From Bacteroidaceae bacterium (GTDB lineage: Bacteria; Bacteroidota; Bacteroidia; Bacteroidales; Bacteroidaceae): a DNA stretch of 47,685 nucleotides. The stretch spans positions 1-47,685 of the forward strand of contig JAGCGS010000005.1 in the NCBI GenBank assembly GCA_017649485.1. Reading direction: 5' to 3'. Below the pieces are notes generated by a model. It worked only from the letters and a program-made list of their open reading frames with translations, did no database searches and was not told the DNA's origin. This document shows, piece by piece, positions 22,277 to 47,659 of this stretch (the first letter of the stretch is position 1; the number at the start of each line of letters is the position of its first letter). A program made the position numbers and the translations under genes.

Positions 22277-23053
22277 TCAGCCCAACACATTACCACGTAT
22301 CTTGGCGAGGTAGTGCTTGAACCCTTCACCATCTTTGTCGCTCAGGATTTGAAGCAGTTCCTTTAGCTCACGACGGATATTCTCAACCTGTGGCATGGTG
22401 CGAGGATTGAACAATATTTCCTGCAAGAGGTAATCATCCTCGTTCATCACCCCACGAGCTATTGCCATATGCTTCTTGAAAGTGGTACCTGGCGCATCCT
22501 GATGTTTCATCACAGCAGCAAACACAAAGGTGGATACAAACGGAATACTAAGTGAGTAAGCCACTGTCTCGTCATGCTCATCGAAGGTATATTCAAAAAT
22601 ATTCAAATGTAGGCTCTGGTACAGGTCCTTAAAAAAGATTCGTCCCAAATGATCGCCCTCCTTGATGATGATGGCGTTCTCGCTACTCAGGTTACTCAGC
22701 GAGGCAAATGTAGGACCGAACATCGGGTGTGTGGACACATAACGGAAGCCACTCTTCTCATAGTACTCCTGCAAACCAGTCTTCACTGAGGCAATATCGC
22801 TGATAATGCAGTCTTTAGATAATGCAGGAAGCACCAAATCAAAGGCATCGAACGTATATTTCAAGGTCACTGCGTTAATCACCAACTCTGGGTTGAAAGC
22901 CTTGATTTCATCCACTGTAGTATAGCGATAGGTATGATATACGAACCTCAGCTTCTGAGGGTCGGTATCGAACACAGCCGTTTCATGCTGAAAACTAAGC
23001 ACATCGGTTAGGAAGGTGCCCATCTTGCCGGCACCAAGAATCAATATTCTCAT
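22277..23053 (-). CDS. tyrA: Prephenate dehydrogenase
   Basis: Oxidative decarboxylation of prephenate to 4-hydroxyphenylpyruvate, the last committed step to tyrosine. The 258-residue protein starts with the nucleotide-binding glycine motif ILGAGKMGTFL at residues 4-14. The catalytic region includes THPMFGPTF, which holds the conserved His, and a helical C-terminal domain follows. It is a stand-alone dehydrogenase without chorismate mutase or ACT domain, since the mutase is fused to the DAHP synthase upstream. The gap to that gene is two bases. It is the last gene of the attenuator-controlled aromatic operon. Confidence 0.9.
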   Translation of the reverse strand: MRILILGAGKMGTFLTDVLSFQHETAVFDTDPQKLRFVYHTYRYTTVDEIKAFNPELVINAVTLKYTFDAFDLVLPALSKDCIISDIASVKTGLQEYYEKSGFRYVSTHPMFGPTFASLSNLSSENAIIIKEGDHLGRIFFKDLYQSLHLNIFEYTFDEHDETVAYSLSIPFVSTFVFAAVMKHQDAPGTTFKKHMAIARGVMNEDDYLLQEILFNPRTMPQVENIRRELKELLQILSDKDGEGFKHYLAKIRGNVLG

Positions 23054-23055
23054 AG

Positions 23056-24123
23056 TTACATGTTTAAGATTTCCAACTGCTGACGCACACTCTCCTCATG
23101 AATGGCTTCAAAAATTTTGCGTACACACATTGGGCTGACACCACAGAGTGCACCCTGTGAGCCTCGTTTATCGAGAATCTCGCTATAACGTCCTGTCTGC
23201 AAAACTGTCATGTTGTGTTCTTTCTTAAACACACCGATTTCGCGAGCCACACGCATACGCTTAGACAACTCCTGAATCAGGTTGTCGTCACATTCGTCAA
23301 TTTGTTTACGCAACTCATTCAGACTCTCTGTAGAATATGTTTCCTTACGGATAACCAACAGATTGAGAATGTAGTCGAGGATATCAGGAGTGACTTGCTG
23401 GGCAGCATCACTCCAAGCCAGGTCAGGCGTGCAATGGCTCTCAATAATCAGTCCGTCCATGCCTAAGTCCATGGCTTGCTGGCACAATGGAGCCACCAAC
23501 TCGCGTCTGCCTCCTATATGACTTGGGTCGCAGAACAGAGGCAAGGTAGGAATGCGGCGACGCAGTTCGATAGGGATATGCCACTGAGGTATGTTACGAT
23601 AGATCTTTTTGTCGCTACTGCTGAATCCGCGATGGATGGCACCCAAGCGCTTGATGCCAGCTTGGTTCAGTCGCTCCATGCCACCAATCCACAACTCGAT
23701 ATCGGGATTCACAGGGTTCTTCACCAATACAGGGATATCCACGCCTTTCAAAGCATCGGAAATTTCCTGCATGGCAAACGGACTGGCAGTGGTACGCGCG
23801 CCAATCCACAGCATATCCATGCCATACTTCAACGCCAGTTCCACATGCTCAGCATGGGCCACCTCGGTAGTGATGTACATGCCCGTTTCCTGCTTCACTC
23901 GCTGCATCCAAGGCAAAGCTATCTCGCCATTGCCCTCAAAACCACCTGGTTTCGTGCGAGGCTTCCACACACCAGCACGGAAGATTTTCACGCCGTTGTT
24001 TGCCAACGCATGGGCAGTATTCATCACTTGCTCTTCGGTTTCCGCACTACACGGACCAGCTATCACAATGGGACGTTCCTTCTTTACGCCCGCTAACTCA
24101 ATAGGAAGTAAATCTAGTTCCAT
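23056..24123 (-). CDS. Bifunctional DAHP synthase / chorismate mutase (type II)
   Basis: Catalyses the first step of the shikimate pathway (phosphoenolpyruvate plus erythrose 4-phosphate to DAHP) and the conversion of chorismate to prephenate. The product is 355 residues. The DAHP synthase part (about 1-260) shows IVIAGPCSAETEEQ near 19-32, RAGVWKPRTKPGGFEG near 49-64, LVKNPVNPD and the metal-site motif CDPSHIGGRRE. The last 90 residues form an AroQ-type chorismate mutase, ESLNELRKQIDECDDNLIQE, with the usual helical KKEHN segment. The fusion allows prephenate or chorismate to feed back on entry to the pathway. It is four bases from the aminotransferase gene and two from tyrA. Confidence 0.93.
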   Translation of the reverse strand: MELDLLPIELAGVKKERPIVIAGPCSAETEEQVMNTAHALANNGVKIFRAGVWKPRTKPGGFEGNGEIALPWMQRVKQETGMYITTEVAHAEHVELALKYGMDMLWIGARTTASPFAMQEISDALKGVDIPVLVKNPVNPDIELWIGGMERLNQAGIKRLGAIHRGFSSSDKKIYRNIPQWHIPIELRRRIPTLPLFCDPSHIGGRRELVAPLCQQAMDLGMDGLIIESHCTPDLAWSDAAQQVTPDILDYILNLLVIRKETYSTESLNELRKQIDECDDNLIQELSKRMRVAREIGVFKKEHNMTVLQTGRYSEILDKRGSQGALCGVSPMCVRKIFEAIHEESVRQQLEILNM

Positions 24124-24127
24124 ATTA

Positions 24128-25312
24128 TTATTTGTTTAGTTTTTTCACTCTTTCTAAAGCTTCTGCCAACTTATCATCTTTACAACAAAGAGAGATGCGA
24201 ACGAATCTTGCGCCATTACTACCAAAGATGAAACCAGGCGTGATGAACACCCGCGCTTCATGCAGCACACGCTCTGTCAGTTCCTCCACATCTTCATAGC
24301 TATCAGGTATCTTGCCCCAAAGGAACATACCCACCTGCCTCTCGTCGTAGGTACAGCCCAGCTCGTGCATGATGGCACCTGCCAAGGCACGGCGGTTGCA
24401 ATAATTGCGGTTATTGCCCTCATACCAGTCGGCTTCGGCATCAAGGGCAGTGGCAGCTGCTAACTGTACAGCGCGGAACATACCACTGTCGATATTGCTC
24501 TTCACCTTCAGAATCCATTGCACAAAATCGGCATTCGACGCCAGCATGCCCACACGCCATCCAGGCATGTTGTGGCTCTTGCTCATCGAGTTGAACTCAA
24601 TGCAACAGTCCTTGGCACCTGGCACACTCAATATGCTCTGCGGATGGTCATTCAAGATAAAGCTATACGGATTGTCATTCACTATAACGATGTCCTTCTC
24701 TTTCGCCAACTTCACCAGTCTCTCGTAGAGTTCAGGCGTAGCGTTCGTTCCTGTCGGCATATGCGGATAGTTCGTCCACATCAGTTTCACCTTACTCATG
24801 TCCATCTGCTCCAATGCCTCGAAGTCTGGCATCCAACCGTTCTCCTCCTTCAGGTCATAATACACCACCTCGGCACCCAATATCTTACTCAGCGAGGTGT
24901 AGGTTGGATAGCCAGGGTTTGGCACTAACACCTGATCGCCAGGATTCACGAAAGCCAAAGTCACATGCAGGATACCTTCCTTCGAGCCTATCAGTGGCTG
25001 GATCTCCTTGTTGGCATCCAGGTCAACATTATACCAACGCTTGTACCAGCGCGCAAAGGCCTGTCGCAACTCAGGTATGCCCACATATGGCTGATAGCCA
25101 TGACCATTAGGGTCTTGAGCCGCCTCGCACAAACATTGCAATGTCTCTGCCGACGGTGGCATATCCGGACTACCAATACCTAAGCTAATCACATCCTTGC
25201 CCTCTGCATTCATATGTGCCACTTCTTTCAACTTGCGTGAAAAGTAATACTCGCTCACACTGCCCAGTCTATCGGCTGGTCTTATCTTAGATTGTTGATT
25301 TTCCTGCTTCAT
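24128..25312 (-). CDS. PLP-dependent aminotransferase (aspartate/aromatic type)
   Basis: Class I/II aminotransferase, probably transaminating phenylpyruvate and 4-hydroxyphenylpyruvate in the final step to Phe and Tyr; this role is inferred from position. From ATG 25312 it is 394 residues. A TTG start nine bases earlier is possible, but GGAGA sits at the right distance before the ATG. PLP-binding Lys is in EFNSMSKSHNMPGWRVG, the substrate-carboxylate Arg is likely in FVRISLCCKDD near the C-terminus, and NPGYPTY and NDNPYSF are family motifs. Its start overlaps the pheA 3' end by 26 bases. Confidence 0.9.
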   Translation of the reverse strand: MKQENQQSKIRPADRLGSVSEYYFSRKLKEVAHMNAEGKDVISLGIGSPDMPPSAETLQCLCEAAQDPNGHGYQPYVGIPELRQAFARWYKRWYNVDLDANKEIQPLIGSKEGILHVTLAFVNPGDQVLVPNPGYPTYTSLSKILGAEVVYYDLKEENGWMPDFEALEQMDMSKVKLMWTNYPHMPTGTNATPELYERLVKLAKEKDIVIVNDNPYSFILNDHPQSILSVPGAKDCCIEFNSMSKSHNMPGWRVGMLASNADFVQWILKVKSNIDSGMFRAVQLAAATALDAEADWYEGNNRNYCNRRALAGAIMHELGCTYDERQVGMFLWGKIPDSYEDVEELTERVLHEARVFITPGFIFGSNGARFVRISLCCKDDKLAEALERVKKLNK

Positions 25313-26135
25313 ATTCTCCAAGTATTTTTAGTTCTTTAGTTAAAGGCATGATGGCAGCTATCGACTGCTTGTAACGCAGCAAGTTGTCATACACAACATC
25401 TATATAGAATTGGTATTCCCATTCGCGTCCGATGATGGGCAACGACTGAATCTTCGTAAGGTTTATCTGGTAGAACGAAAGGATGGACAGTACCTGTGAC
25501 AAGCTACCCTCCCTGTGCGGCAAGGTAAAAACCAGATTCGCCTTGTTGGGGGTCATGGGCTTCGATCGGTTCAGCGCATCTACCTGCCAGGGGTCAGCCA
25601 CCACCAAGAAGCGGGTGAAATTGTGCTTGTTCGTCTCAATGCCTTCCTGCAACACCTTCATGCCATATATCTCAGCGGCATACTTCGAGCATATGGCGGC
25701 ATGCCCATGCAGGTTGTTCTGCTTGATATTCTCTGCACTCAAGGCAGTATCCTCAGTTTCCACCACCTTCAAGCCCGGATGTTGCTTCAAGAACTCACGG
25801 CACTGCATCAATGCGATGGGGTGAGAGTTCACCTCAGTGATATCCTGCCAGTCATCATCTGGCAAACACACGAAACTATGAGATATCCTCAACTTATGCT
25901 CGCCGATAATCTGCACACCACTTTGCCTCAGCAACTCATTATTGTACAACAGGCTTCCCGCAATGGTATTCTCAATAGCCAGCATGCCAAGCACATGACT
26001 ATCCTCGCTAACGGCTTTGAACACATCCTCGAACGTGGCACAGCATATCAACTCAATCTCTTCATTATCAAAAAAATGATGTGCCGCAATATCGTGATAG
26101 GAGCCTATTCCACCTTGTATCGCTACTCTCTTCAT
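25287..26135 (-). CDS. pheA: Prephenate dehydratase
   Basis: Converts prephenate to phenylpyruvate, committing flux to phenylalanine. From ATG 26135 (MKRVAIQGGIGSYHDIAAHH) the product is 282 residues. The catalytic motif NFTRFLVVA, with the essential Thr-Arg-Phe, is near residue 180. The C-terminal ACT domain follows: FTLPHREGSLSQVLSILSFY, then KIQSLPIIGREWEYQFYID. In well-studied enzymes the second segment reads ESRP and binds Phe; here it is QSLP. The chorismate mutase domain of E. coli PheA is absent and is supplied by the downstream fusion gene. It is the first structural gene after the leader and terminator. Confidence 0.93.
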   Translation of the reverse strand: MKRVAIQGGIGSYHDIAAHHFFDNEEIELICCATFEDVFKAVSEDSHVLGMLAIENTIAGSLLYNNELLRQSGVQIIGEHKLRISHSFVCLPDDDWQDITEVNSHPIALMQCREFLKQHPGLKVVETEDTALSAENIKQNNLHGHAAICSKYAAEIYGMKVLQEGIETNKHNFTRFLVVADPWQVDALNRSKPMTPNKANLVFTLPHREGSLSQVLSILSFYQINLTKIQSLPIIGREWEYQFYIDVVYDNLLRYKQSIAAIMPLTKELKILGEYEAGKSTI

Positions 26136-26148
26136 ACGGTCTAAACTA

Positions 26149-26184
26149 TAAAAAAATCCCGCCACACAATGTGAAGCGGGATTT
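26149..26184 (-). terminator. Attenuator terminator before pheA
   Basis: On the minus strand AAATCCCGC (complement of 26176-26184) pairs with GCGGGATTT (complement of 26154-26162) around an inner CACA/TGTG stem. The hairpin ends in a run of seven T followed by AT. It ends 13 bases before the pheA ATG and is downstream of the operon promoter, so it can only act as a regulated (leader) terminator for this operon. Confidence 0.9.
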
Positions 26185-26228
26185 ATATGATTTCTTAATT
26201 CTTCATTTTTGGTTCTTAAGCGTCACTG

Positions 26229-26315
26229 TCACTTGACACATACAAACTCCCGCTCTACTTTATGGCTAAAGTAAAAGTAATAAAAGTAGTATGCAAAAGT
26301 AAACAATGCCTTCAT
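26229..26315 (-). CDS. Phe/Tyr-rich leader peptide of the pheA operon
   Basis: A 28-codon frame, too short for most gene callers, starts at ATG 26315 and stops at TGA 26231-26229. Its first 16 residues are MKALFTFAYYFYYFYF: ten of residues 5-16 are Phe or Tyr, mostly in TTT and TAC codons. It ends with SHKVEREFVCVK. The codons for ERE supply the GCGGGA antiterminator strand. The start lies about 25 bases after the promoter's -7 element. A three-codon ATGAAGATATGA precedes it, and its stop overlaps the leader ATG. It should be a cis-acting sensor of charged tRNA-Phe and tRNA-Tyr, with no role for the free peptide expected. Confidence 0.85.
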   Translation of the reverse strand: MKALFTFAYYFYYFYFSHKVEREFVCVK

Positions 26316-26339
26316 ATCTTCATTTCGTTCTTTCGGGTG

Positions 26340-26373
26340 CAAATGTAAGCAAAAAAATTAGAAAACAAGCAAA
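26340..26373 (-). promoter_or_regulatory. Promoter of the aromatic amino-acid operon
   Basis: Minus-strand TACATTTG (complement of 26340-26347) is an exact match to TAnnTTTG. Upstream, TTTG (complement of 26370-26373) is 22 bases away and CTTG (complement of 26366-26369) 18 bases away; either could be the -33 element. The site is only about 18 bases beyond the stop of the TPR gene, so the leader starts immediately after that gene. Confidence 0.7.
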
Positions 26374-47540: not shown

Positions 47541-47548
47541 TCAACAAA

Positions 47549-47659
47549 GACGGCGGCTACCTACTCTCCCACCTTGTGGGCAGTACCATCGGCGTAGCCG
47601 GGCTTAACTTCTCTGTTCGGGATGGGAAGAGGTGGAACCCCGGCACTATAGCCACCTGA
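47549..47659 (-). rRNA. rrf: 5S ribosomal RNA
   Basis: The minus strand carries the conserved 5S core: CCCATCCCGAACAGAGAAGT, then TTAAGCCCGGC and GGTGGGAGAGTAGGTAGCCG. The ends pair as helix I (GGTGGCTA, complement of 47649-47656, with TAGCCGCC, complement of 47552-47559). The length of about 111 bases fits Bacteroidales 5S. The exact ends are uncertain by a few bases. It is the last gene of an rRNA operon; the remaining 26 bases (47660-47685) are the 23S-5S spacer, and 23S and 16S lie beyond the window. Confidence 0.95.

Follow-up and report, generated by a model that had tools for sequence, protein, structure and literature searches.

A predicted Phe/Tyr leader-peptide attenuator precedes the pheA-tyrA operon and is widespread in Bacteroidia

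Results

Genes and leader elements at the locus

The window analyzed here is a stretch of 47,685 nucleotides from a Bacteroidaceae bacterium, and all features of the locus lie on its minus strand. The first gene, pheA, encodes a prephenate dehydratase of 282 amino acids (25287..26135, ATG at 26135; Pfam PDT, 5.9e-56). It is followed by a class I/II aminotransferase (24128..25321; Pfam Aminotran_1_2, 1.5e-61), for which the coordinates are given as listed from a TTG and the start is provisional, by a DAHP synthase fused to chorismate mutase (23056..24123; Pfam DAHP_synth_1 and CM_2) and by tyrA, encoding a prephenate dehydrogenase (22277..23053; Pfam PDH_N, 4.9e-9), with NCBIfam prephenate dehydrogenase matches below cut-off. 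In a set of near relatives, comprising the best 80 of 576 loci from a PheA search, the three other enzymes are encoded 3' of pheA in all 71 loci reaching 4 kb. The order pheA-aminotransferase-DAHP synthase/chorismate mutase-tyrA is found in 72/72 loci showing all four genes.

Upstream of pheA, the sequence contains a promoter element of the TAnnTTTG (-7) type (TACATTTG, 26340..26347), a form described as the -7 consensus in flavobacteria (PMC9723704). Downstream of it, a short open reading frame of 28 codons plus stop encodes the putative leader peptide MKALFTFAYYFYYFYFSHKVEREFVCVK (26229..26315). The frame starts with the ATG at 26315 and ends with a TGA at 26231-26229, and it is assigned from the sequence and from its conservation in relatives. 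Codons 9-16 (26268..26291), reading Y Y F Y Y F Y F, are assigned as control codons on the basis of Phe/Tyr conservation and folding. The last control codons together with AAAGTAGAG make up hairpin P1 (26253..26276), predicted by RNAalifold, whose TACTTTA/TAAAGTA stem with the loop GCCA lies at 26273-26256 in the window sequence.

Within the codons for E-R-E lies AGCGGGA (26248..26254), the putative antiterminator strand (strand 2), which pairs with the 5' arm of the terminator and could be extended over 26239-26255. The intrinsic terminator itself (26150..26184), recognized from the sequence and from its pairing in the alignment, combines a TCCCGC/GCGGGA stem with a run of seven T; its 5' arm TCCCGCT is located at 26181-26175, its 3' arm GCGGGA at 26162-26157 and the T run at 26156-26150. 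Folding and the alignment identify CATATAAATCCCGCTT (26174..26189) as the 3' partner of the extended antiterminator, overlapping the terminator 5' arm. In the window, this antiterminator can be extended to 16 pairs with one bulged G, formed by GAGCGGGA-G-UUUGUAUG with CAUAUAAA-UCCCGCUU. All attenuator parts that the preliminary description of this DNA had placed between the promoter box and pheA were thus found in the sequence, with one measure to be corrected: the distance from the terminator to the pheA ATG, given there as 13 bases, is 14 when counted from the T run. A further hairpin missing from that description, P2 (26212..26247), carries the stop codon in its loop. It is part of the RNAalifold consensus fold and shows covariation at a Val/Ile codon; it is absent from the window's own minimum-energy fold.

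The fold of the window leader has a z value of -2.82, with 1/200 shuffled sequences being equally stable, which represents a modest excess. A simple terminator scan of the window did not have the leader terminator among its matches. At gathering score, 5S rRNA was the sole Rfam match in the window, with no T-box or other cis-regulatory family found; the 5S ribosomal RNA gene is located at the window end (47548-47659, minus strand). Judging from the sequence comparisons described below, the decisive support for the leader comes from conservation and from the joint change of its strands, the stability of the fold alone being modest.

Conservation among near relatives

The near-relative set spans Bacteroides, Mediterranea, Caecibacteroides and assemblies from rumen and gut, and its closest member, with 92% PheA identity, comes from an assembly of a sheep-rumen Bacteroidaceae. 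An aromatic leader frame with an ATG start is kept in 76/80 near-relative loci. The four loci without an ATG leader are L011 and L059, whose upstream DNA is too short, L066, whose leader by eye reads in frame from a GTG, and L035, in which the leader start is, by eye, absent. In L027, as read from its sequence, the terminator 5' arm is absent; L027 and L035 each come from an environmental assembly in which an error is possible.

Among the 77 ATG leaders, window included, a TAnnTTTG box is found 24-42 nt upstream of the leader ATG in 76, and the last five positions of the aromatic run are Phe or Tyr in all of them. Near relatives show almost no variation in the core GAGCGGGAGTTTGTATG, synonymous sites included, or in the C-terminus EREFVC of the peptide. 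About 17 nt 3' of the stop codon are also largely invariant in these loci.

Secondary structure and covariation

Alignment A1 consists of 38 rows, i.e., the window and 37 of 79 core-bearing loci. Loci at least 93% alike were dropped, L011, L035 and L066 were left out for want of an ATG start and L027 for want of a terminator arm; L014 was re-added by hand, and the starts of L051, L052 and L070 were corrected by hand. RNAalifold applied to A1 resulted in three hairpins, namely P1 over the control codons, P2 around the stop codon and P3, which is the terminator. Four pairs of P1-P3 show a two-sided change in comparison to 0.5 in shuffled alignments, of which 0/500 had as many, and these four pairs are confined to P2 and P3.

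In P1, more than 99% of cells are paired, 5/9 pairs are invariant and none exhibits a two-sided change. P1 shares just 2 bases with the 7-base antiterminator strand and, compensatory pairs being absent, it was rejected as a proven protector. The terminator P3 is paired in 98.1% of cells, and two of its pairs exhibit a two-sided change. Covariation in P2 links the initial base of the Val/Ile codon to a base 3' of the stop codon, the counts being G-C 25, A-T 24, G-T 15, A-A 1 and A-C 0 in 65 motif-bearing sequences from which relatedness was not removed.

The pairing AGCGGGA:TCCCGCT is present in 100% of cells across the 38 rows and includes one two-sided change. For the 16-pair antiterminator, 95.5% of 601 cells are paired; its outer eight pairs receive no covariation support, with 434/500 shuffles scoring as high for pair types, and its outermost pair is missing in 20/36 rows. 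In one near relative, L014, strands 2, 3 and 4 are changed jointly (AGTGGGA, TCCCACT and GTGGGA), and a residue of the peptide changes from R to W alongside. The usual C-G-C set is kept in 74/80 core-bearing sequences. The three-strand change in L014 is a single event, yet it is of the kind that RNA pairing, and not peptide function, would predict.

Folding with a ribosome placed on the leader

The leader was folded at equilibrium with a ribosome placed on it, excluding from folding the RNA that lies under the ribosome or behind it and assuming a ribosome front edge 13 nt past the start of the A-site codon. For A-site placements at codons 11-13, the predicted probability of the antiterminator in the window was 0.96. 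It was 0.45 at codon 10, 0.13 at codon 9 and 0.05-0.12 at codons 14-16, and for a stall at codon 9 or 14-16 the terminator was favoured at equilibrium with a probability of 0.86-0.95. Without a ribosome, the terminator reached 0.994, and from codon 17 onward at least 0.99. Before the 3' arm of the terminator exists, the antiterminator is predicted at 0.93 even without a ribosome. The two-state fold put forward in the preliminary description is consequently clear for codons 11-13 and half realized at codon 10; at codons 9 and 14-16 the antiterminator is predicted only before the terminator 3' arm exists.

The same model was applied to 75/81 sequences (L011, L027, L035, L043, L059 and L066 were skipped), with codons numbered from the E of EREFVC. 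The mean probability of the antiterminator was 0.23-0.41 at the aromatic codons -11 to -5, and 0.17 one codon past the run; from the second codon past it, the value stayed at or below 0.01. The terminator reached at least 0.8 in 73/75 sequences without a ribosome and in 74/75 with the ribosome at the stop codon. The antiterminator attained a probability of 0.5 in 33 sequences, and in every one of them it peaked at a codon for Phe or Tyr. The remaining 42/75 sequences attained this value at no position at equilibrium, and the switch must therefore be kinetic there. The folding model thus supports the direction of the switch, not its basal level.

Occurrence in genomes selected by pheA alone

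A search of 158 genomes of the phylum detected prephenate dehydratase in 138. The upstream DNA was read in 90 of these 138, consisting of the 30 best-scoring loci and 60 fetched stretches, for which all same-class genomes besides the window's own and a spread of other families were chosen. A leader with at least six F/Y in 10 residues was found in 33/90 genomes in comparison to 1.9% of 1,800 shuffled regions, and one with at least seven in 31/90 genomes in comparison to 0.33% of shuffles. Within the same class (Bacteroidia), a leader lies directly 5' of pheA in 30/34 genomes (3.0% of 1,360 shuffles), and 29/34 contain at least seven F/Y (0.22% of shuffles). Outside the class, leaders were found in 3/56 genomes (0.8% of 1,120 shuffles); one of these three is weak, and L236, with a score of 6 and a TTG start, is likely chance. 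A joint retention of the short frame and the hairpins, suggested as a check in the preliminary description, is hence seen both at close range (76/80 near loci) and across the class (30/34 genomes).

Two more genomes of the class, G076 and G111, lack a leader at pheA and carry one 5' of a DAHP synthase gene instead; this gene, identified by eye, is situated 3.5-3.6 kb upstream of pheA on the same strand. In G012 and G095, which belong to one family, a leader ahead of pheA was not found. Some lineages (L090, L092, L101 and L107) have the Phe/Tyr leader in front of a gene for DAHP synthase.

In a later draw from the class, pheA was found in 14/42 genomes, eight of them from families new to the sample. 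Four of these eight carry a leader at a score of at least 6, in comparison to 0/320 shuffles, and four do not; one more, L302, possibly has a poorer leader, as judged by eye.

A model built on near relatives (R1) matched 62/395 genomes of the phylum at E ≤0.1. Of the 30 returned loci, 22 are at a Phe/Tyr leader by reading, window included, a count that takes in L095 and L100, whose downstream gene was not checked. The weak R1 matches L096, L098, L104, L105, L108, L110, L112 and L113 were rejected as apparent chance terminators. In a class draw, R1 matched 12/119 genomes at 0.001; a near-relative model is therefore no measure of breadth, and the pheA-anchored sample is.

Joint change of strands in distant leaders

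The distant set comprises 32 leaders, 30 from the same class and 2 others. All 32 are followed 3' by a terminator-like hairpin, and all 32 contain at least two Phe and at least two Tyr. The joint Phe/Tyr sensor, initially regarded as unusual, is thus not peculiar to this genome. Strand 2 was defined in these leaders as the stretch that pairs best within 48 nt, and its sequences are highly varied (AGGATTGT, GAGGCTTT, GCCGGGACT, CGAGACCT and others). Pairing each terminator arm with the post-run segment of its own leader gave a sum of 637, in comparison to 445 (sd 19) for permuted partners; the permuted maximum was 523, and 0/20,000 permutations reached the own-pair sum. Taken individually, 12/32 leaders beat 95% of foreign partners, and 19/32 showed p ≤0.05 against shuffled leaders. 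Compensated stem changes, the other check proposed at the outset, are accordingly represented by the three-strand change in L014 and by this own-pair excess over 32 leaders.

The start of strand 2 lies 5-16 nt past the last aromatic codon in 30/32 distant leaders, with 31% expected if it were evenly placed. Relative to the start of strand 2, the position of the stop codon ranges from 26 nt upstream to 30 nt downstream. Such a confined spacing of strand 2 together with a variable stop is what one would predict if it matters where the ribosome stalls. The distance from the hairpin to the pheA start ranges from 6 to 130 nt across the 32 leaders.

Other amino acid leaders in relatives

By reading, His-run leader frames, e.g., MKYTVAHHHHHFPNE, were found before hisG in 20/26 relatives; those at L145, L149, L150, L160, L162 and others lie ~100-220 nt upstream of hisG. 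Among 14 further hisG loci examined from a class draw, all 14 showed three or more His within six residues, in comparison to 1.8% of 553 shuffles, and 9/14 showed four or more, in comparison to none of the shuffles.

In an uncontrolled count, Leu/Ile-rich leaders of a common form, e.g., MIQNFTYILLCGIIILLARFSGSECCA, precede leuA in 10/25 loci (L259, L260, L261, L263, L264 and L271-L275); in 5 of the 15 other loci the start of leuA was not located. Leader-like frames with WWW or WW, likewise counted without a control, precede trpE in 4/24 loci (L178, L179, L182 and L192); MWW frames before trpE in L176 and L180 were set aside. In the window's own genome, we found no His leader close to hisG, no Trp leader ahead of trpE and no Leu/Ile leader in the 270 nt before leuA, near a contig edge. 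A frame with HHH starting 322 nt upstream of hisG in this genome was set aside. As read from these sequences, the His, Leu/Ile and few Trp leaders in relatives suggest that leader-peptide control is a general habit of the class.

Discussion

In the sequences compared, the frame, the control codons, the terminator and the strand complementary to it are conserved jointly and change together. We consider it very probable that the leader is a ribosome-mediated transcription attenuator ahead of pheA-tyrA that responds to both Phe and Tyr. As predicted from sequence, the family of Phe/Tyr attenuators to which it would belong is widespread in its class and has no Rfam match at gathering score.

According to this prediction, the antiterminator and the intrinsic terminator would compete for one strand. 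With ample Phe and Tyr, the ribosome would pass AGCGGGA toward the stop codon and cover the antiterminator strand, and the terminator would form. When Phe or Tyr is short, the ribosome would stall on the aromatic run with its front edge short of AGCGGGA; the freed strand would then pair with TCCCGCT, through up to 16 pairs in the window, and block the terminator. Polymerase would thus get as far as pheA-tyrA only under a scarcity of charged Phe-tRNA or Tyr-tRNA. The two kinds of codon alternate within a single run, so that running short of either amino acid should be enough, and sensing of either fits an operon that makes both Phe and Tyr. P2 would compete for the outer half of the 16-pair antiterminator and favour termination, although the role of this hairpin is a guess.

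The T run ends just 14 nt from the pheA start and could hinder initiation, so that the leader might control translation of pheA, i.e., act by translation attenuation and not by termination. We regard this as improbable, given that the hairpin possesses a T run at all and that its distance from the gene start varies between 6 and 130 nt in the 32 distant leaders, unlike a structure masking a start site. Still less probable is a T-box- or riboswitch-like arrangement in which the RNA is sensed by a protein, a tRNA or a metabolite and the frame is incidental. The core GAGCGGGAGTTTGTATG and the ~17 nt after the stop codon are indeed more invariant than pairing obviously requires, as such an arrangement would lead one to expect; however, no Rfam family is matched at gathering score, and distant relatives differ in the core and retain the Phe/Tyr run and the pairing.

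The near-invariance of EREFVC among near relatives could also indicate that the frame encodes a functional small peptide, with the hairpins being secondary. The codons for these residues, however, are nearly invariant at synonymous sites too, the R to W change in L014 leaves the pairing intact, and the C-termini of distant leaders are diverse. A functional peptide consequently appears very improbable, more so than either translation attenuation or direct sensing by the RNA, and ribosome-mediated attenuation of transcription is the reading that we retain.

On a broader proposal our judgement is evenly balanced, namely that leader-peptide attenuation may be an ancestral and general control of amino acid operons in Bacteroidia, although Shine-Dalgarno initiation is hardly used in this class, with a dual Phe/Tyr switch before pheA or DAHP synthase, His-run leaders before hisG, Leu/Ile leaders before leuA and Trp leaders in some members, and that P2, in Bacteroides, may make the finishing ribosome a second input. 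P2 and the antiterminator share a stretch of eight bases. Ribosome-mediated attenuation requires a ribosome that closely trails RNA polymerase. An attenuator family across a class of Bacteroidota would imply that transcription-translation coupling probably works there too. The leaders might then serve as reporters of coupling in gut Bacteroides. They would further constitute a family new to Rfam and would name a regulator of aromatic amino acid synthesis in common gut bacteria.

In the enterobacterial pheL attenuator, a short Phe-rich leader, a terminator and an antiterminator precede pheA, and the leader described here shares these elements. Unlike pheL, the window leader alternates Tyr with Phe codons, carries an extra hairpin around the stop codon and has no Rfam match at gathering score; in the window and in near relatives, the antiterminator strand moreover lies inside the frame, 5' of the stop codon. 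Multivalent leaders of the ilv type, e.g., that of ilvGMEDA and also the ilvBNC attenuator of C. glutamicum, have in common with it that one leader mixes codons for several products of the operon. These leaders concern other amino acids, and they are likened here by description, not by sequence.

According to a study from 2010, which set aside the atypical ermC leader, leader peptide systems had to its authors' knowledge been demonstrated in no group other than Proteobacteria and Actinobacteria until their own case in Firmicutes (PMC2965389). In 5' UTRs of Bacteroides thetaiotaomicron, short frames reminiscent of leader peptides have been described, in a passage that does not mention pheA (PMC7366714). 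None of the matches listed in the open full-text literature dealt with a Phe/Tyr attenuator of Bacteroidota as such. A transcriptome of Flavobacterium psychrophilum, published in 2021, presented strong clues for leader-peptide attenuation before amino acid operons, together with structured elements 5' of pheA and hisG that occur in other Flavobacteriaceae and have no Rfam hits (PMC9723704). The passages of that article on the pheA and hisG elements give no sequence, strand anatomy, Phe/Tyr content or range beyond Flavobacteriaceae. The initial remark that few leader-peptide attenuators are described in Bacteroidota needs qualification in view of the F. psychrophilum elements (PMC9723704). The Phe/Tyr attenuator was partly foreseen by that work, and an earlier mention is possible, e.g., in a 2010 survey of attenuators (Mol Biol 44:128). 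With the pheA element of F. psychrophilum, as far as it is described in the passages concerned, our leader shares the phylum, the target gene, the proposed leader-peptide attenuation and the absence of an Rfam hit.
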